From Arabidopsis thaliana (Eukaryota > Streptophyta > Magnoliopsida > Brassicales > Brassicaceae): DNA of 64,000 nucleotides. The notes under the pieces were generated by a model, which was not told the origin of the DNA, made no database searches, and saw only the letters and a list, made by a program, of their open reading frames with translations. Both the position numbers and the translations under genes were made by a program. Of this stretch, positions 48,953 to 61,982 are shown piece by piece (positions within the stretch are counted from its first letter, which is position 1; each line of letters starts with the position of its first letter). The DNA is taken from NCBI RefSeq assembly GCF_000001735.4, contig NC_003076.8, positions 13,891,835 to 13,955,834 on the forward strand, in the 5' to 3' direction.

Positions 48953-50330
48953 GAGACGAGAGGGGTTATAAGAGGAACAGGGGAAGAAGAAGAAGCGGAG
49001 AGAGGAGAAAGAATGGTGGGGGAGAGAGGAAACAAAGGACAAAAAGTGTAGATAAAGACATACTTCTCCGAGGTGGGGGACCCAGGTTGTGAAGGTATGT
49101 TTTTTTCCTATTTTTATTTTCTTTTGTCAAGATTTGTTATTATTTGTTTTTGTTTATTCTTAATAGATGCAGATTTGTTTGTGAAATAGCTTCAATTTTA
49201 TATTTTTTAGGAAAAGTATTGGTTCAGTATGGTGACATATTTCAAAATTTCTTTCTTTTGATATGCAGATTTTGAATTATAATGGCAATATAACAGCTAT
49301 ATTATTATAAATCACTAGATTTATATTTTGACGATTTTTTATATTTAAAATAGTGTTATATATCATTAAGAATTCAACAATATATTTGCTAAGTTTATTT
49401 CCTTCCGCGAACATTAGTAAATTTTTTGTATATGGTAAACTATTGGCTAAACACAAATATTTGTAGATCGATCCATTTTAAAAATGAGAAATAAAATAAT
49501 ATGTATACGCAAAAAATTTGTCAGAGAGATCAAACTCGTAGCACCAAATCTCGACTTTCATACCAGTAGTAAAAACTTTTAAAGCATAGTTTAACATATT
49601 TTTTTTTCCCAACATACTATTGTCATTATAAGTAAATAATTTTTGGAAATCTGGTTAAGCATATTCTTATCATTACAATCCTCAAACCTAGAATTCGCCA
49701 TATTCTGTCATCACAAAACTTAACCCTACTTTTTCTCATATTGCAGCTATCACGATCCTCAAAACCACGGTTCATCGTGAACTTTAGTCCAAACTCATCA
49801 CAAACCAACACATGAGCATGCGATGCTTTTAAGTTTATTCCTCAATCTAAATATAGAAATATTTACATTTTCTGAAAATTATTCATATATATAGTGCTTT
49901 TATATAATTACAATTAACATTTTTGATTAGTATTTTTTAGTTAAAACATTTTTATTCTTTTTTAATTAAAAATAATTAACGAAATAATGATGAATCACGT
50001 TATTAAGAGAGAAAAAAAAATAAAGCCACATTATTAACGTCACTAAGAGGAACATTTTGGTTTTCCTCCCAGACATTGTTCATCTTGGGAAAAAAAAATG
50101 TCTTCTCTTTTACTAGGTGTTTATCCGAAAACGAAGAAAACCTATTTCTCGTGGCTATTCTCTCTTTCTCTCGTCTCTTCCGCCCGAAACTTTTAACGTC
50201 GTTGTCATCGAGTCACATTTCGTCTCAACTCAACTTGTTTCGATATGTGTCAAATCTTTATTTCGATTTTTCCGACAATAATCAGACATCTAAGTTCAAT
50301 AGCAAGTGATTCCCATGATTAAAACCATTT
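48953..50330. other. SAP promoter and intergenic DNA
   Basis: The GA-rich stretch 48953-49060 is probably SAP 5' UTR. No further gene is recognised. The short frames 49626-49811 and 50076-50309 have no support. Confidence 0.4.
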
Positions 50331-50378
50331 TCTAAAACCACTGTTATGATATTGATGGTTTTTATCGACGCTTATTAC

Positions 50379-50700
50379 GGCTGATTTTTGCCGTCGATTT
50401 ACATATGGTGGCTGATTTGTTATTTCTATTCGATTTGATGGCTGAGTTATTGTATGCTTTAGGACTGATTTATGATTTATTAATGCATATGTGGTTGAGT
50501 TTGTTTTGTGTTGTGGCTTGGTTACTGTATGTTTTATGACTGATTTATGATTTATCAATGCATATGTGGCTAGGTTTGTTTTATGTTGTGGATGAGTTAT
50601 TGTATGTTTGACTGAGTTATGATTTATCAATGCATCTGTGGCTAAATTTGTTTTATGTTGTGGCTGAGTTAATGTATGGTTATGGCTGATTTATGGTTTA
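50379..50700 (+). repeat. Motif array 1: GGCTGA(G/T)TTATG variants
   Basis: At least ten variants of (T)GGCTGA[G/T]TTATG, partly arranged in ~70-bp larger units that also contain GATTTATCAATGCATATGTGG. It ends right before the ATG of the DUF1985 segment. Confidence 0.85.
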
Positions 50701-50704
50701 TTAG

Positions 50705-51237
50705 ATGGCTAAGGTTATTTCTGAAGAACAAGCAAAGGATTACCCTCTAAGAATTTACGCAGAAGGAGAGTCTAATCTAGAGAATAAACTCATTAATCAC
50801 AATATCAAGATGACATATTTCTATGGGATTTAGAGAATTAGTATGATAAGATGTGTGGGATCAAATGAAGGAGGCACCTATTGGAATAATTACTAAGTTA
50901 TCGAATAGTCAATTCGTGTGGTCTCGTAAGACTGTACATTTTCTATTAAGTAGACAGTTAATAATACTTTTGAAGGAGATTTGGTGTCTCGTTGGTTAAT
51001 GCTATAAAGATGTTGAGGCCTATTGGAAAGTCGTACACCATCAGTGGTATGGTTTTCATGTTACAGGCTTGGGCATATGATTCAGTCAAATGCTTTGGAG
51101 AGCGATATAGGAACGTAGTCAATAAGGATGAAATATCGTTGCTTAGATGGGGTGGAAACCGTACACGTACAACAATGGAATTTGATGTAGGTCAAATTGC
51201 TCTAAGTTTACTCCCTCAAATAAGAGATCGTCGTTAG
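50705..51237 (+). pseudogene. DUF1985 domain segment
   Basis: The ATG at 50705 begins MAKVISEEQAKDYPLRIYAE, followed by GESNLENKLINHNIKMTYF, then a stop at 50831-50833. The reading resumes out of frame and becomes clear again at 50992-51237 (NAIKMLRPIGKSYTISGMVF, LQAWAYDSVKCFGER). These match DUF1985, the domain of ULP-like MULE genes and of VANC-type proteins, near its end. The central part is eroded and the downstream coding part is displaced by inserted LTR sequence. Confidence 0.7.
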
Positions 51238-52043
51238 TACTTAAGGGTAAAATTCCACAAAACTCTTTTGTTCACACAATAGGCTAAAGTATCAAAATCA
51301 AGCTAGATAGATGATAAGAAAATAAAAAGAAAGCAAGTAAGTAGATAGTGGATTGTGAAGTTGTAAGACAAGATAATAAAAACGTTAGGTTTAGGGTATT
51401 CTCAGGAAATAGATGATAAGAGATATAGAAATAGCTAGGATGTTATCGAATCGTTCTTAAACTCAAACCCTAATTACAGAATAAGCGGTGGTTCGCCGTG
51501 CTACTCAATATGCCTAGGGCTAAAGATTCCCAGCGGTCGCTTGGCAAATCCCTATATTAAGACATGCATGATAAACGAGTTTGATAAGTTCACCTAAATA
51601 GATAGGCCGATTCTTATTTCACATCTATAAACTTGGCTCATCAAATAGTATTTCTGGTAACATATACCTTTTTGGGCATACCTATTATTTAAGATTAAGT
51701 TCTAATTAGTTACTCTAGAACTAGCATTAAGAATAACCAAAGATGAAAAATCCTACATATATCCTAGCAGGTGAACAATCTACTAAATCATCTAAATCCC
51801 TAATGAGAAACCCTAACCCTAACAAGTAGACTACTCATACATGATGGATGAAACAAACAACATTTATGAATGAGAAAGCATAAACAAAATCAATAAGAAG
51901 AAAGAGTTAGAAAATATCTCTTCGGTATTATTGAAATCTCTGATAAAACTCAGAAAAATGAATCCAATGTATAAATAGCTTATAAAATGCTTTAGAACAA
52001 GTTAGGTGGCTAAAAACTTGTTAGGTCACAACAATGACCTTAA

Positions 52044-52046
<3 letters not shown>

Positions 52047-52078
<32 letters not shown>
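52047..52078. repeat. (TA)n microsatellite
   Basis: TA dinucleotide run of 32 bases within the LTR-like remnant. Confidence 0.9.
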
Positions 52079-52079
<1 letters not shown>

Positions 52080-52116
52080 CCTAAAAACGTGTAGGTTACA
52101 TTATTAGGGCGCAACT

Positions 52117-52152
52117 GGTGTCGATCGACACCAAGAGTGTGTCGATCGACAC
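52117..52152. repeat. Two closely spaced perfect palindromes
   Basis: GGTGTCGATCGACACC (52117-52132) and GTGTCGATCGACAC (52139-52152) share the 14-base perfect core and are separated by six bases. Confidence 0.9.
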
Positions 52153-52311
52153 TCTCGACTTGATCTGAAACTAAATTCGTCATTTGGCTTAGTTTCTTTA
52201 GCATTTGCTCCAAATTGTCTCCTTAACTCCATTCTTGTCCCAATCCAAAGAATACCTTAAAAGACTCTAAAAGGACTCTAAAACCTATATTTAAATCATA
52301 GTTAATGTTGG

Positions 52312-52804
52312 TGTCGGATCCCGCATCATGGGCTCGGATCCGGCCAAAGATTGCTACGTGGGTAAAAGAAGCCCATAAGAGAAAGGCCCATAAACGTCCT
52401 CGAGGTGAGAGTATGGATGAGGTGTTGAGTTGCGAAGTGAATACATCATCGAAGTCAAGACTACCCGGATTGAAGAGGCCGAATGGGCCGAAAGGTGAAG
52501 TCAAGAAAAGCTCGGAGTGGATTCAAGTTCCAACGTTCAAATAGTTAATTCGAAGGCTAGAAACGGACACATTTAAGATAGAATGATTGTGAGTAAATAG
52601 GTATTAAATGTATTCTTTGGGTATAAATTGTGGGTCAAAGACCATGTAAAGACAGACGCATTTCTTGGTGCAAATTAGCTATACACACTCTTTTACAATA
52701 CTCATAGTTTTCTCTATAGTCACTTGTCTATTTTCTAGTATATTTGTCCTCAAGAATAATCCTTCCCACTAAATAAATAAATACTTGAGTGTGCGAATCC
52801 GACA
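52312..52804 (+). mobile_element. Probable solo LTR, 493 bp
   Basis: It starts TGTCGGATCC and ends AATCCGACA, so the ends are short inverted repeats beginning TG and ending CA. The interior has LTR-like order: a GC-richer promoter part, a TATAAAT-like box near 52622, then an AT-rich R/U5-like part ending CGAATCCGACA. No internal coding region or partner LTR is nearby, and the flanking five bases (GTTGG, TCCAC) do not match, so it is old or rearranged. Confidence 0.6.
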
Positions 52805-52883
52805 TCCACAGTTAAAAACAGTAAAAATAGGGTTATATCAGAATCGACCATTGCTAAAGATATCTAAGTGCATGGTGAGATAA

Positions 52884-53130
52884 GGTTTTGGCTGTGTTGT
52901 GATAGTTACTGATTGAGTTATGATTTGAAATGGCTGATTTATGGTTTGTGATGGCTGATTTATATTTTATGATGGATGATTTATGGTTTGTGATGGCTAA
53001 GTTATATTAGTGATGGTTTAGTTTTGATTTATTGATATTTGAGTTATATTTTAGTGATGGCTTAGTTATGGTTTAGTGATGGTTGAGTTATGGTTTAGTG
53101 ATGTCTAAGTTATAATTATTGATGATAGAG
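52884..53130 (+). repeat. Motif array 2
   Basis: About ten further variants of TGATGGCT[G/A]A[G/T]TTATGGTTT, spaced roughly 20 bases apart, in the non-coding gap before the ORF at 53165. Confidence 0.85.
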
Positions 53131-53164
53131 TTTAAACTAACTAATGTGTTTTATTTTGTTATAG

Positions 53165-54912
53165 TTGCGTGTGAGTAAAATGGTTATGAAGGATGATGTA
53201 AGAGAGTTATTTCATACGTGGCCAAATCAAGTAGAAGACCCAACACTTGATCACTTGATCGAAAACATACATGAGAATAAGTTTGTTAAAGGTTATAGGG
53301 ATGTGAAGAGAAATGAGAAGAAGAACAAACATGTAAATGGTAAAGTAGCGGTTGAGTCTGAATCTCACGCAAAGAAGCAGAAAGTCTCCCACAGTGAGGG
53401 TGGTGAATATTATGAAGGACATGCACAAAGGAAGAAGAAGAAAGAAAGAAGCAAAGGTAGTGATTTGTGAACAAAAGTGAGGCTGGTGAATCTGGTGAAG
53501 GAGATGCACAAAAGATGAAGAAGAAGAAGAAAGAAGCTAAGGTAAGTTATATGGTCTATGGTGAGTTTATATTTTATGTAATGTTTGGCTAGCTTGTTAG
53601 TGTTTGTTTTTTTGTATGTATTGCATGGTGTTAGTGAGGAGGATGATGTTCTCGAAGATGTGTTGGTTAGAGCAGTCGTGGATATGGTGTCCAAATTAAC
53701 TTCAAGTTTTAACACTGTTGATACAAGCATTAGAGAAATGTCTTCAAATCTAGAGAAGGTGATTGGAGATAGAGTGGAAGCGAAGATGGATGCAAAGTTG
53801 GAAAGCGGATTTGGATATATTGATAGTGAGTTCAAACAGAAGAAAGAGCATTTGAATGTCATGGCCATGGGGGTAGAGCAAACTGACCAAAAAGCTAATG
53901 ATTACGAGAACTCAGAATTCAAAATTACAGATCTACTCAGTATTTAGAAGCAGCGAGATCAGCTACTATGACAACAACAACAACAAAAAACACCAAAAGG
54001 TTCAAGAAAACCTCGACAAAACTACTATGTTACTAGTCCTCCTCATGTAAGCTAATAGTGCAACACATATGTTTGAATTATAAATACATTGCGGCTGATT
54101 AATAATTTTCTTATTTACTTACGGCTGAGTTATCATTATCTTATGACTGAGTTATCATAATGTTTATACAGGCGAAGGATATTGTCGATGTAGTAGAGAA
54201 GGATAATGGTATTGATGAGGTCAATAAGAATATGGATAAAAAATTTGTGAAGGCCATTGATGGGGTCAATAAGAATATGGATAAAGAATTTGTTAAGGCC
54301 ATTGATGAAAAACGATGGTGATATTGGTTTCATTGAGAAGTCTCTTGGTTATAGGAAATTACGCCCTACGACGAGGAGAAATAACAAAGAGAATGAAGAG
54401 GTAAAGAAGAAATCCGTCAAAGAGCAAATCATCAAAGAGCCAACCGTGAAAGGTAAGAGAGGTAGAAAACCTGTAGAGGCGAAAAAGTTGACCATATAAC
54501 TACATCCTGCTCTTGTTATTAATGAGAAGGGAGAAGCTGATGAAACAAAATTACCTGCTCTTAATGTGAAGAGAGAGTGTTGTTGTCTCCAAAAAAGCTG
54601 AGGAAGTCACTGACAATGATGGTTAGAAGGAAGGTGACAGTGACGTATGAGATGTCACATACCAGTTTATCGGTGAAAACGGAAGCACGTTCCCTGAGTC
54701 TGATGATGATGAGGATTGATATAATCGAAGCTTTAAAGACGCAGAGTATTAAGCTGTCTACGGATGGTAGTGCATTGAATCCACTCTTTAATCTCTCAAC
54801 ACGGGTTTTTCCTAATACTGGAGACAACAGACTGAAGTGCATGAGGAAGAATTGTGTGCCTTCAGCTGGAATATATGATCCTCTATCACCGGCTGATACA
54901 GCCAAATTGTAG
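53165..54912 (+). pseudogene. Middle segments of the Ulp1-type MULE gene
   Basis: Three readable parts. 53165-53470 encodes DDVRELFHTWPNQVEDPTLD and a Lys-rich tail. 53631-53947 encodes an acidic, coiled-coil-like region (VSEEDDVLEDVLVRAVVDMV, SSNLEKVIGDRVEAKMDAKL). 54577-54912 ends with CVPSAGIYDPLSPADTAKL. A short direct repeat (VNKNMDK..FVKAIDG type, 54216-54310) lies between. Frames are broken repeatedly. These charged linker regions are typical of the family and lie between DUF1985 and the protease domain. Confidence 0.6.
54090..54160 (+). repeat. Motif array 3
   Basis: Three copies (GCGGCTGATTAAT, ACGGCTGAGTTATC, ATGACTGAGTTATC) in a short non-coding gap between coding segments. Confidence 0.75.
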
Positions 54913-55020
54913 AAACTTAAGGATTACTTATCCCCATTCTAGTATGACCCTTTATACCTTATTAAGTTGTTAATTACAACTTGTTAACATTATTTCTGTA
55001 TATTAACTTGTGTTTATTTG

Positions 55021-55930
55021 TTAGGAATCTCCCATTGGGCAGGGCAACAAACGATGTTGATTTCTACAGGGTTATCATCTCCGAAAGAAAGCACTGACCA
55101 ACCAGAGAATATGGATGGTTGTTCGATAGTGTAAGTATTACATTAGCAGAGTTATTAGTGTGTTTTGTCAGAGTTTTACTACATTATGGCTGAGTTATTG
55201 GTGTGTTATGCTACATTATGGCTGAGTTATTAGTGTGTTTTGTCTAAGTTATGTTATATTGTGTCTGGGTTATTATTTTGTTTTGTCTGAGTTTTTTTTT
55301 TGTACAACATGTGGCTGCGTTATATAGAGTCCTCAGGAATAGGTACAAGCGAAATCTCTGCCCATTCCACAACAAACGCATTGCATTTCTAGACACGTGA
55401 TTCGTGTCTTTTTGGGTTAGAGAGTATGTACAGTGCAAAATATAAAAGAAGATGTTTAAATTCAAAGACACCCCGTATGAAAAGATAGTTAATGGTTTGC
55501 TTCCAGATAATCAACAGACAAATATGAAGTGAATAGAAGATGTGAATCACTTGTATTTGATTCCCCAAACCAGAGGCGATCACTAGGTGGCACTACACAT
55601 GGACCAGATTAAGGGGCACATTGATTGCTATGATATCATTGTGGGATAAGTTACAAGAAACTGAATAGAATTGATTAGAATGTTGTAGGCCGTTTACGAG
55701 AATGATTCCAGCAATGATGAACGTGCTAATTCCTACTACAATCGGTGAACATAGGTTTGAGCAGTTTACATTCAAAAGGAGTAGTGTCTCCAGGGTCCCT
55801 CAAAACGTACAAGTTGGAGCTGCGGCGTGTACTCGTGTTAATTTTTTGAATGTCTAACGCTTGGTATAACTTTCAATGACATATGTGATTTCAACCTATA
55901 CAGGTTAAGATGGCAGCATATATCTACAAT
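55021..55930 (+). pseudogene. Ulp1/C48 cysteine-protease-like domain, inactivated
   Basis: In shifting frames one reads RATNDVDFYRVIISERKH and YGWLFDS (55030-55130), then after a motif array NLCPFHNKRIAFLDT (from about 55350), FKDTPYEKIVNGLLPDNQQT, VNHLYLIPQTRGDH, VALHMDQIKGHIDCYD, and a GA/CGVYS-like segment around 55815. The His of the catalytic triad is present (GDH), but the following conserved Trp codon is replaced by a stop (55594-55596). The Cys segment is out of frame. Members of this family are SUMO-protease-like; this copy cannot be active. Confidence 0.7.
55141..55325 (+). repeat. Motif array 4
   Basis: About eight variants of TGGCTGAGTTATT[A/G]GTGTGTTTTG, spaced 20-30 bases, in the gap that splits the protease-like coding region. 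Confidence 0.85.
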
Positions 55931-55965
55931 AAGGCACCTAATCTGCTTGGACAGTTTAGGATTTT

Positions 55966-57289: not shown

Positions 57290-57393
57290 TGAGATCATCA
57301 AAATCATCTTCAAAAATTTTGTGTTCTTAAGTTAAGAATTCTTAAATTGTTTCCTTTCTCTGTTGAGTTGATAGTCTTGTGTGTCAAGTAACA

Positions 57394-60300
57394 ATGACAA
57401 ACCCAACGTCTGGTGATGGATCTTTGTCAACCATGTCGAGTTCTATCGGAAAACAACCAGAGGTGGTGACGTCGGCGGTGACAGTGTCACCGTTCACTCT
57501 TTCTAGCTCCGATAATCCGGGGGCTATGATTCCATCGGTCATGTTGACTGGTGACAACTACAATTCTTGGTCGACAGAGATGCTAAACGCTCTTCAAGCC
57601 AAACGAAAGACGGGTATCATTAACGGTGCAATACGTAAACCACCTGCTGATGATCAAAATTTCGAAAATTGGACAGCGGTGAATTCTATGATAGTTGGAT
57701 GGATCCGAGCTTCCATCGAACCAAAGGTGAAATCCACCGTGACTTTCATCTCAGATGCTCATCAATTGTGGATTGATTTGAAGCAAAGATTTTCTGTGGG
57801 CAACAAAGTGCGTATTCATCAACTCATAGCACAGCTCGCGACATGCCGTCAAGATGGACAATCTGTTTTAGATTACTATGGACGGTTGAGTTCGTTGTGG
57901 GAAGAATACCAAATTTACAAACCCATCACTACGTGTACGTGTGGTTTGTGCACTTGTGGTGCCACATGACAACCATCCAAAGAACGAGAAGAAGAGAAGA
58001 TTCATCAATTTGTGTTGGGACTTGATGAATCTAGGTTTGGAGGAGTTAGTACCAATATCATATCTATGGATCCTCTTCCAACTCTTGGTGAAGTATATTC
58101 GAGAATCATAAGAGAGGAGCATTCTTCTCGCAACAACGAGCAACATCGAGAGTCAGTTGGTCTGTTTACTCGACATGACCAGTCTGCTTCAGATGTCGCT
58201 GCCTACTTTGGGAAATCAGATGTGACTGCTTTAAACAGACCTGAATCCTCAATCATCAAACCCCGAGATTGTAACGTGCTCTGTTCGCATTGTGGACGAG
58301 CTGGGCATGAAAAACAGGAGTGTTGGCAGATCGTGGGGTTTCCTGATTGGTGGAAGGAACGAGAACGTCTTCAAAAGGCTAGTGGTCGTGGAGGAGGAGG
58401 ACGAGGAGCAGGACGAGGAAGAGGACAAGCTTTTACAGCTCATGCCACAAGCTCACATTCCTCTGTTTTTCCTGACTTTACACCGGAACAAATAAAGGTT
58501 CTTCAACAAATGGTCACCGAAAAATCAAGCACCAATAACGTCGACAAGTTGTCGGGTAAGAGAGCTCTTGGTAATGTGATACTTGATACAGGGGCTTCTC
58601 ACCACATGACGGGAAACCTTTCTCTATAACATAACATCAAAAATATTTCGCCATGTTCGGTGGGATTCGCAGATGGAAGTAACACATTTGCCTTGAGTAT
58701 GGGAGTGTTCCCATTGTCTGACACGGTTTCGTTAACCGATGTCCTATACGTACCATCTTTAAATTGCACACTTATCTCAGTTGCTAAGTTCATAAAACAA
58801 ACCAAGTGTGTAGCTTTGTTTACTGAGACCTTGTGCGTTTTGCGGGACCAATTTTCGAAGACTTTGATTGGAAGCGGTGAAGAGCGTGATGGGGTTTACT
58901 ACTTTACGGATGTTGTTTCACCAAAGATACATAGCGTGGATGTTGTTTCTGACAAAGCGTTGTGGCATCGGCGATTGGGACATCCATCATTTTCTGTTCT
59001 TTCAACTTTGCCTATGTTTCTAGTTCTTCGAAATCTGCTACTCCAAGTCCTTGTGACATTTGTTTTAGAGCTAAGCAGACTAGAGAGGTTTTTCCAGAGA
59101 GTTTTAATAAAGCAAACGATTGTTTTTCTTTAATACATTGCGATGTTTGGGGGCCTTATCGGGTTCCATCTTCATGTGGAGCAGTTTACTTCTTGACTAT
59201 TGTTGACGATTATTCAAGAGCGATGTGGACATATCTGCTTCTTCAAAAGTCAGAGGTACGAAATGTGTTGACAAACTTCATTGCATATGCAGAGAAACAA
59301 TTTGGAAAAACAATAAAAATCGTTAGGAGTGACAACGGGACTGAATTTATGTGCCTCTCTTCTCACTTTAAGCAGCAGGGTATCATACATCAAACATCTT
59401 GTGTTGCGACGCCACAGCAGAATGGTAGAGTTGAGAGAAAACATCGCCACATTCTTAATGTTGCTAGGGCATTGTTGTTCCAAGCTAGCTTACCTATCAA
59501 GTTTTGGGGAGAAGCAATTCTTACTGCAGCATATCTCATCAATTGCACACCCTTTTCAGTTAACAATGGTCGTTCCCCATATGAAATTCTACACAACAGC
59601 AAGCCTCCCTACGATCAACTCCGAGTGTTTGGTTCAGCTTGTTATGTTCATCGTATGGCTCGAGACAAAGATAAATTTGGAGAAAGAAGTAGACTTTGCA
59701 TTTTTGTTGGTTATGCTTATGGAAAGAAGGGATGGAAGGTTTATGATTTGGAGAAAAATGAATTTTTCATATCTCGTGTTGTTATTTTCCGGGAAGATGT
59801 TTTTCCATATGCAGCTGGTGATGTTAATTATGTGCATGTTTCTTCAATACAAGTCATTCCTGATGAAGACTGGCTGGTACCTCCGTCTATAGTTGTAAGG
59901 GGGAGCTCAGAGTCTCAAATCGACTCTGTTCCAGCAACTCAAGCGGCTCCTCAAATCGACTCTGTTCCAGCAACTCAAGCGGCTCCTCAAATCGACTCTG
60001 TTCCAGCAACTTTAGCGGCTCCTCAAAACGACTCTGTTCCAGCAAGTCCGGTTTTGCTTGAAAAATCCACGAGTTCGTCTCCTGTTACAATTACACCACC
60101 AGCTTCTCCGAAAATAAGAACATCGTCTTCTTCACCAACACTAGCGCCACTTGTTGATGTTTTAAAACCTGCAGATTCGCCTCATCCTATTGTGGAATTG
60201 CGTCGAAGCAAACGAGAACGACAGGAATCTGTTAGACTCAAAGATTATGTGGCTCATAAAGTAGTATGTTCTTCAGAAACCCATCACGCTCTGCCCATCA

Positions 60301-61982
60301 CTGCCTCTCCATCATTGTCTTCGTCAACGGTCTAAGGTACGTTTTCATCTGAATATGAGTCTCTGTATTCGTTAACAGATTTTATCTCGGATGAACAATT
60401 CTCACTAGGACATCGTGCGTTTTTGGCTACCATTACAAAATCGGTTGAGCCTAAGCATTTCAAGGAAGCTGTTCAAATAAAAGTTTGGAATGATGCTATG
60501 ATCAAGGAAGTTGATGCTCTTGAAATTAACAAGACGTGGGATTTGGTTGAGCTTCCTCGCGGAAAAATTGCACTTGGAAGTCAGTGGATTTACAAGACGA
60601 AATACAACTCGGATGGTACGATAGAACGGTATAAAGCTCGTCTAGTAGTCCTGGGTAATAATCAGATCGAGGGAGAGGATTACAAAGAAACTTCCGCCCC
60701 TGTCGTGAAAATGACTACGGTTTGTGCTCTTCTTCGACTCGTTGCTGCTAATCAATGGGAGGTATACCAAATGGATGTCCATAATGCATTTCTCCACGGA
60801 GACTTGGAAGAAGAGGTATACATGAAACTCCCTCCAGGCTTCCGTCATTCACACCCCGATAAAGTTTGTCGACTTAAAAAGTCTCTATACGGACTTTAAC
60901 AGGCTCCACGTTGTTGGTTCAAGAAGTTGTCTGATTCGTTACTTCGATTCGGGTTTGTTCAATCATATGATGACTACTCTTTATTCTCTTACACTCGTGA
61001 AGGTATGGAGATCCGAGTTTTGATATATGTCGACGATCTCCTCATTTGCGGGAATGATAATTATATGCTTCAAAAGTTTAAAGAATATTTGAGTCGTTGC
61101 TTTGCAATGAAAGACTTGGGGAAACTCAAATATTTTTTGGGGATAGAGGTGAGAAGAGGACCAGAGGGTATTTTTCTGTCACAGCGCAAGTATGCTTTGG
61201 ATATTGTGGCGGATTGTGGAACTCTCAGTGCTACAGCTGCTGCAACTCCTCTTGAACAAAACCATCACTTAGCTGATGACGATGGTCCCTTACTGGCTGA
61301 ACCAAAGAAGTATCGAAGGCTGGTAGGACGCTTGATCTATCTCACTCACACACGACCCGAGTTAAGCTATTCGATACACGTTTTATTTCAATTCATGCAA
61401 GTTCCACGTGAGGCTCATTGGGATGCTGCTCTTCGTGTCGCTCGTTATCTAAAGGGAGCTCCTGGTAAAGGCATTTTGCTCAAAGCTAATCCGGATCTTA
61501 CTCTTACTGTCTACTGCGATTCAGATTATAATTCTTGTCCTCTAACAAGGCGCTCTTTGAGTGCTTTTGTTGTTTTGCTTGGTGGCTCTCCTATTTCTTG
61601 GAGAACAAAGAAACAAGACACTGTCTCTCACTCTTCCGCTGAAGCTGAGTATCGCGCAATGTTTGTCGCTCTCCGTGAGATAAAATGACTTCGAAAACTC
61701 TTGACAGGATTGGGTATCAAACTCACTGCGCCAGCTCGTTTCTTTTGTGATAGTTAGGCTGTGATTCACATTGCGGCAAACCCAATGTTCCACGAACGCA
61801 CCAAGCACATCGAATCAGACTGTCACTTTGTCCGAGATGCTGTCCGAGATGGACTTATCACTACTTGTCATATTGGCACTACGGAACAGCTAGCAGATGT
61901 CTTAACCAAGGCCCTTGGACGTGTTCAATTTCTTACCTTAATGTCCAAGTTGGGCATTCAAGACCACCATGCTCCAACTTGA
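57394..61982 (+). pseudogene. Copia gag-pol with seven inactivating lesions
   Basis: The frame starts at the ATG at 57394. Gag (UBN2-type) runs to about 58250, followed by a zinc knuckle CSHCGRAGHEKQEC (58282-58323) and protease motif LDTGASHHMTG. After LWHRRLGH comes the integrase with its D, D and E (HCDVWGP; VRSDNGTEF; GRVERKH). Reverse transcriptase shows WIYKTKYNSDG, QMDVHNAFLHGDLEEEVYM and YVDDLL (catalytic Asp pair near 61030); RNase H shows YCDSDY and SSAEAEYRA. Lesions: stops at 57967, 58627, 60333, 60897, 61686 and 61755, and one frameshift near 59015. The terminal stop is at 61980. Integrase through the C-terminal tether is otherwise one long open stretch (59020-60332). Confidence 0.95.
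59916..60045 (+). repeat. 36-bp in-frame minisatellite in Copia pol
   Basis: Three full copies and one partial copy of a 36-base unit encoding QIDSVPATQAAP, at 59916, 59952, 59988 and 60024. It is in the Pro/Ser-rich linker between integrase and reverse transcriptase and preserves the frame. Confidence 0.95.

Follow-up and report, generated by a model that had tools for sequence, protein, structure and literature searches.

The 64-kb window, the whole stretch of DNA analysed here, contains the remains of a transposon-borne DUF1985/Ulp1 gene. A short motif, GGCTGAKTTATG, is repeated in its non-coding gaps. The following features were assigned; L069 is a relative of the element.

49900..50378, plus strand, likely left flank of the element; similarity to the left portion of L069 at 49900-49991 and from 50282 on; motif-free
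50379..50703, plus strand, gap 1, leader or an intron in the 5' UTR; 9 motif copies (at most 2 mismatches); ends in AG directly before ATG
50704..51181, plus strand, exon 1 remnant, located by tblastn with L069 exon 1; an internal deletion took most of the DUF1985 core
51182..52839, no strand assigned, transposable element nested inside exon 1; motif-free; about 25 relatives at 72-81%
52306..52810, no strand assigned, solo-LTR-like insert within the nested element; TG...CA, flanked by GTTAA direct repeats
52884..53164, plus strand, gap 2, intron 1; 8 motif copies, spacing mostly 21-22 bp
53165..54049, plus strand, exon 2 remnant; tblastn with L069 exon 2 gives 53165-53455 and 53663-54052
54050..54172, plus strand, gap 3, intron 2; 3 motif copies; donor GTAAGC, acceptor ACAG
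54173..55133, plus strand, exon 3 remnant; tblastn with the frames of L069 exon 3 gives 54594-54716 and 54739-55008, the remainder assigned by position
55134..55326, plus strand, gap 4, intron 3; 4 motif copies; donor GTAAGT, acceptor TATAG
55327..55935, plus strand, exon 4 remnant, a Ulp1/Peptidase_C48 pseudogene with 12 stops; Pfam match only at E 0.11

The four gaps have splice-like GT/AG edges and correspond to the leader and introns 1-3 of the relatives. The initial annotation had described a DUF1985/Ulp1 gene with non-coding gaps. The gaps stand as leader and introns; the gene itself is badly decayed. The DUF1985 core has been lost by deletion: in L069 exon 1 the DUF1985 Pfam match comprises residues 82-216, of this exon tblastn aligns residues 1-117 and 214-277, and DUF1985 was not found in those window pieces that were scanned with Pfam. 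A MULE transposase (PF10551) was not found in the window copy, nor was the exact left end of the element. Gap 1 contains a 75-bp tandem repeat (50439-50701). Other genome copies of the solo-LTR-like insert are mostly at 84-91%, one at 71%. The window copy is a dead half-element which has retained its arrays.

At up to 2 mismatches the element (50379-55324) has 24 copies of GGCTGAKTTATG, all on the plus strand. They are packed into the four gaps, 9, 8, 3, and 4 copies in 325, 281, 123, and 193 bp, respectively, i.e., in a summed length of 922 bp, and 0.02-0.21 copies per gap are expected by chance. Every coding piece of the element and the nested insertion in exon 1 are devoid of the motif at this threshold. 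The remaining 59 kb of the window possess only 5 copies, 2 on the plus and 3 on the minus strand. The total of 29 matches in the window compares with 8.4 expected, and none of 100 shuffled windows reached it. These counts bear out the proposed packing into the gaps, the near absence from the rest of the window and the enrichment over shuffled sequence; an equal density elsewhere, which would have spoken against the proposal, was not observed. The claim of more than 30 copies is correct at up to 3 mismatches (35 within the element), not at up to 2 (24); with the looser setting the motif is common elsewhere too, with 66 matches on the plus and 41 on the minus strand of the whole window. The repeated short word is real and fills the non-coding gaps of a transposon family, including the decayed copy in the window.

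L069 has open DUF1985 and Ulp1 exons and carries motif repeats; the locus at C5:13285873 also has both exons open, with an exact motif copy alongside. Intact relatives lacking the repeats would have contradicted the initial annotation; these two have them, yet no relative is proven intact throughout: in L069 the sequence of exon 3 is spread over different frames, and the Ulp1 exon of L073 has 2 stops. DUF1985 is recognized in the relatives by Pfam with E-values of 1.5e-22 and 4.1e-22. In L069, DUF1985 (exon 1) and Peptidase_C48 (exon 4, E 8.7e-61) are on the same strand 2.4 kb apart and probably belong to one gene. In the Brassica oleracea homologue P0040 DUF1985 and Ulp1 both reside within a single protein; Capsella as well as Brassica has proteins of this clade.

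The motif tracks a single DUF1985-Ulp1 subfamily. The exact-motif matches are complete for C1 and C2, and there no exact motif is present within 3 kb of 57 of the 61 DUF1985 loci. Statements on C4, C5, and the part of C3 past 12.43 Mb apply to the matches listed. Ulp1 matches, which are fragments rather than genes, were counted in 41 of 45 cases, omitting 4 second fragments of listed genes. Among the 18 with at least 56% identity 4 are without an exact motif inside 15 kb (3 on C4, among the matches listed, and 1 on C1, where the matches are complete). Shared ancestry alone would let a motif and a gene family travel together. The MULE or VANA transposase domain PF10551 was located beside family members at C2:5211060, C5:13296457, C3:12119328, and C2:10594716 (150 of 292 candidates scored). 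Single motif copies occur within exon 1 and at the ORF tail of L073 and in the transposase frame of L079. A comparison of the two end regions revealed no long inverted repeat; exact ends and a target-site duplication were not found.

This organization is reminiscent of VANC21 from VANDAL21 (Hiun), i.e., a DUF1985 protein of a MULE with a homologous exon (profile E 5.5e-9 for exon 1 of the family) and with same-orientation arrays of a short motif confined to non-coding parts (introns, intergenic regions, and ends). VANC21 has been crystallized with its target DNA (9lnj; 9lnk is the same protein). A structure model of the family DUF1985 region is of only moderate confidence (mean pLDDT 63), with an rmsd of 4.4 to VANC21. 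The family differs from VANC21 in its motif and in the addition of Ulp1. The VANDAL21 motif is given as YAGTATTAY in the accessible text of PMC5735166; it is absent from the window element and occurs once in L069, on the other strand. Conversely, GGCTGAKTTATG is absent from the VANC21 locus at up to 2 mismatches. For VANDAL6, 7, 8, and 17 the accessible parts of two papers report AGTTGTCC/AGTTGTAC as the VANC6 motif (PMC5735166; PMC10398659); arrangement and logic are shared with the family, the motif is not. Thus, the family motif is, as had been claimed, unlike known ones, the comparison comprising these two published motifs. Kaonashi (KIU) is described as having a VANDAL gene with both DUF1985 and Ulp1, a pairing probably shared by L069, and Ulp1-carrying VANC elements recognize their own motifs according to a review (accessible parts of PMC13317346 and PMC10398659). 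A full-text literature search with four 10-base pieces of the motif returned no VANDAL paper among the matches listed, and the accessible portions of PMC12312487 and PMC12844716 contain no motif of this kind. The motif may already be listed by Sasaki (2022).

A core AGTNNT, shared by YAGTATTAY, AGTTGTMC, and GGCTGAGTTATG, was discarded: about 5% of arbitrary 12-mers contain it in either orientation, it was picked after the fact, and many window copies have GATTTAT, which breaks it. The locus at C1:17048592, which we take from its TE number to be VANC1 (VANDAL1, 2, 22), belongs to another DUF1985 group and is without the family motif. The locus taken as VANC6 was placed by gene position; its motif content fits. 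De novo 8-mer counts at the VANC1, 316-aa, 294-aa, and 293-aa group loci (4.5-6 kb each) yielded no comparably dense non-coding word, and the GTACGTAC palindrome of the VANC1 and 316 loci was unranked in non-coding DNA. In the non-coding control the VANC21 motif ranked fifth, as reverse complement, and the VANC6 motif fell outside the top ten; therefore, these counts are no evidence that such loci lack motifs.

Most probably, the arrays serve as cis recognition sites in a VANC anti-silencing system that carries Ulp1 and is of the VANDAL/Kaonashi type. The proposal that they serve the element's own DUF1985 protein gains support from the sparseness of the motif elsewhere in the window, its presence in relatives with open exons, its tie to one subfamily and the homology to VANC21. 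An autonomous VANDAL-like (MULE) member would encode a single protein, with DUF1985 in its N-terminal and Ulp1 in its C-terminal part. The former would bind TTAYGGCTGAGTTAT, which is dense in the leader and introns, in 3' and terminal non-coding DNA, and in the surroundings of the transposase gene. Binding would strip silent marks, DNA methylation in non-coding parts first, from every array-bearing copy, non-autonomous ones included. Binding, methylation loss, and mobilization are expected from the examples of VANC21 and VANC6.

Slippage might instead have multiplied a 21-22 bp unit in the introns which no protein reads, the motif being what remains of the founding unit. Such growth fits the runs spaced exactly 21-22 bp apart and the 75-bp tandem repeat, and likewise the exact copies along C2:5198272-5205998, mostly about 345-400 bp apart and many near 369 or 378. 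Nevertheless, this is improbable. An initial conservation count had picked copies by a 9-base core, so that the high core values were partly built in. With half-word seeds of five bases core conservation is upheld at lower values: the half not used as seed retains 0.7-1.5 bits per position (ten gaps, two diverged copies), the linkers between copies mostly less than 0.5 bits, up to 0.8 just upstream. Further, the element read has the word throughout the gaps of two separate genes, with both orientations present towards the transposase end, and VANC sets a precedent within the same protein family. Gaps between adjacent copies cluster near 21, 31, 42, and 52 bp. At 10.5 bp the 12-mer has R 0.60, equalled by none of 5,000 random sets, but the copies in an array have a common origin. 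When each spacing is used only once, p is 0.005 (12-mer) and 0.07 (9-mer), or 0.05 and 0.64 with the period scanned; for spacings above 24 bp it is 0.03 or 0.23. Helical phasing of the copies is suggestive only; such periodicity is said to have been noted as a VANC feature by Sasaki in 2022.

An action at the RNA level, in which the repeat (CTGAG/CTGAT) would serve as a splicing signal or a branch-point-like sequence within the introns of the element itself, would agree with the sense orientation of all window copies and with the AG that ends all four gaps before an exon. We find this hardly credible in view of L069, in which the motif is dense on both sides of the gene as well, of 8 antisense next to 26 sense copies in the flanks of the transposase gene, and of its recurrence in the long stretch between the element's two genes. 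Very little likelihood is also accorded to sites for the transposase or a host factor in place of the DUF1985 protein. The motif does surround the transposase gene and lie near the far end of the element, and transposases presumably vary by subfamily too, so family specificity alone is not decisive. What speaks for the DUF1985 protein here is precedent: it binds such arrays in VANC21 and VANC6 (accessible text of PMC5735166), and exon 1 is homologous to VANC21.

VANC-type anti-silencing with a family-specific word is an already known strategy. It is rather doubtful that the family represents a distinct and so far undescribed VANC system of the Ulp1 type, using TTAYGGCTGAGTTAT as its own word, in which the arrays would bring a SUMO protease to element chromatin and local SUMO removal, rather than DNA binding alone, would undo silencing. 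Under the Ulp1-carrying VANC reading, one more motif-protein pair would join the few anti-silencing systems of transposons, from a lineage that also has a SUMO protease. Used alongside the solved VANC21-DNA structure, this pair would provide a handle on the DUF1985 residues that set motif choice. The arrays outlast the gene and can be used to identify dead members of the family.

With up to two mismatches, the limit used for all motif counts below unless stated otherwise, GGCTGAKTTATG has 29 matches in the window versus 8.4 expected, a number reached by none of 100 shuffles. The initial annotation had likewise discounted chance AT-richness. Of these matches 24 fall within 50379-55324, every one on the forward strand, and are distributed over all four non-coding gaps of the element, where 0.02-0.21 copies per gap are expected.

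Motif copies in the gaps of the window element
Gap 1 (leader), 325 bp: 9 copies
Gap 2 (intron 1), 281 bp: 8 copies
Gap 3 (intron 2), 123 bp: 3 copies
Gap 4 (intron 3), 193 bp: 4 copies

No copy is present in the coding pieces of the element, the nested insertion or either flank, and the other 59 kb of the window contain five. The claims of motif-packed gaps, motif-free coding segments and near absence elsewhere are therefore all borne out. The asserted number of over 30 copies is obtained at up to three mismatches (35 in the element), but not at two (24).

The exons were located by tblastn, using as queries the exons of L069, a relative at C2:5188500-5197500.

50690-51180: exon remnant
53165-54052: exon remnant
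54594-55008: exon remnant
55269-55910: exon remnant

The motif gaps sit between these remnants, their borders resemble GT/AG splice sites, and gap 1 terminates in AG immediately 5' of an ATG. By its alignment with L069 exons this is the remnant of a DUF1985/Ulp1 transposon gene. The copy is dead: the DUF1985 core is mostly deleted, a nested transposon (51182-52839) interrupts exon 1, and the Ulp1 part contains 12 stops. The nested element has at least about 25 genome relatives at 72-81% (40 scored of 590 candidates) and is itself split by a solo-LTR-like insert of 505 bp (52306-52810) flanked by GTTAA direct repeats. Neither the transposase half nor the right end of the element was found within the window. 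To the right of the element, at a distance of 1.4 kb, lies a Copia-type LTR retrotransposon body in several frames (57367-61982), whose region 58953-60335 holds an integrase core and an SH3-like domain. A second DUF1985 locus (C5:13962605-13966922), with an adjoining MULE transposase, lies about 7-11 kb beyond the right edge of the window.

Exon 1 encodes DUF1985 in L069 (E 1.5e-22) and in a second relative, L073 (E 4.1e-22). In L069 exons 1, 2 and 4 are open, exon 3 is divided over frames, and exon 4 is a Peptidase_C48 domain (E 8.7e-61); the Ulp1 exon of L073 has two stops. At C5:13285873-13289719 the DUF1985 and Ulp1 frames, the two exons read, are without stops. In at least four family members (150 scored of 292 candidates), the strand opposite the DUF1985 exon carries a PF10551 transposase at a distance of 11-19 kb. 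L069 has 44 motif matches, all on the forward strand.

Motif matches in L069 (exon limits approximate; one match straddling an ORF edge is dropped)
Upstream: 9
Introns 1, 2 and 3: 9, 10 and 5
Downstream: 5 and 4
Exon 2: 1

Outside bare stop-to-stop ORFs are 41 of the 44 matches in L069 and 49 of 51 forward-strand matches in L073, one of the two exceptions being well within exon 1; L073 has four further matches on the opposite strand. By itself, GGCTGAGT is found 30 times in 6.4 kb of L069, where 0.5 would be expected, and never on the other strand. The far, transposase-bearing part of the L069 element has 34 matches (26 sense and 8 antisense relative to the transposase), nearly all outside the transposase reading frames (one inside, one at an edge). 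In one family member, the DUF1985-Ulp1 gene is separated from the transposase by about 8 kb (C2:5198272-5205998) in which exact copies stand mostly 345-400 bp apart, with spacings of 369 or 378 bp frequent; judged from copy positions, this looks like a long tandem array. Arrays in both orientations occur at L048, L049, L054 and L056, loci whose DNA matches the far end of the family. Among the DUF1985 matches scored none lies within 20 kb of L048, L049 or L054, which may therefore represent solo ends or non-autonomous members.

Conservation was measured by half-word seeding, in bits per position, as the mean across ten gaps from two diverged copies. The seed GCTGA recovers the following KTTA (1.0-1.3 bits) and the preceding G (2.0), the seed AGTTA recovers the preceding GGCTG (0.7-1.5), and outside positions are mostly below 0.5, with up to 0.8 in TTAY just upstream. 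This argues for retention of the word and against plain unit copying. Neighbouring copies are often 21-22, 31, 42 or 52 bp apart; since the units of an array are related to one another, the statistics do no more than suggest such a preference.

A search of 119.66 Mb (seven contigs) yielded 194 exact copies versus 11 for the backwards-read pattern; positions are complete for C1 and C2, and counts are minima for C3 beyond 12.43 Mb, C4 and C5. On C1 and C2, 57 of 88 exact copies are within 20 kb of a DUF1985 match, and four members of a single subfamily account for 52 of these 57. For 57 of the 61 DUF1985 loci there, no exact copy lies closer than 3 kb. Of 297 DUF1985 candidates 150 were scored; at least 11 of these have an exact copy no farther than 3 kb away, and their profile scores all fall in the range 65.9-85.4 bits. 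Exact motifs lie within 15 kb of at least 14 of 18 Ulp1 matches at 56% identity or more; at 39% or less it is one of 23 among the matches listed, the window copy. Among the first 30 loci listed for GGCTGAGTTATG, some of which overlap, 27 have five copies or more; of 13 compared with the family, ten array loci match and three others do not. Eight high-scoring DUF1985 control loci have 0-2 copies each. Five loci (C1:2799455, C1:7353753, C2:12577183, C3:9734912 and C5:18130496) have identical DUF1985 scores and frames, each with a same-score transposase match about 7 kb away, which suggests a family that spread recently. In the 4.5 kb read from one of them, L076, no dense motif came up in the ranking.

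The motif is absent from the loci of the known anti-silencing genes VANC21, established by a near-exact gene match to the crystallised protein, and VANC6 and VANC1, whose presumed positions follow from gene or TE numbers. It is likewise absent from L080, a sister DUF1985-Ulp1 locus, and from L076 (294-aa group), and occurs once at L077 (316-aa group). Counted on both strands, the VANC21 locus has six copies of the motif published for VANC21 and the VANC6 locus five of that published for VANC6, and neither motif occurs in the window element, in line with the claim of a motif unlike YAGTATTAY.

At the level of sequence, the anatomy has those features of a VANC system for which a clear answer was obtained; the element ends gave none. 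Hosaka 2017 (PMC5735166) showed that VANC21 binds to YAGTATTAY arrays of non-coding DNA and removes methylation, and that VANC6 works via AGTTGTCC/AC; the window element has GGCTGAKTTATG arrays in its non-coding gaps. The same regions are attacked by RdDM, as stated in Sasaki 2023 (PMC10398659), and Ulp1-carrying VANC elements likewise use motifs of their own, according to a 2026 review (PMC13317346). By this likeness, the DUF1985 protein of the family would bind the motif, DNA at the arrays would be demethylated, and Ulp1 may take some part in anti-silencing.

Sasaki 2022 reportedly comprises at least ten VANC systems, so the chance that the GGCTGAKTTATG motif is already listed there is considerable. 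We place this family as a probable further example of a VANC-type system, a kind already known.
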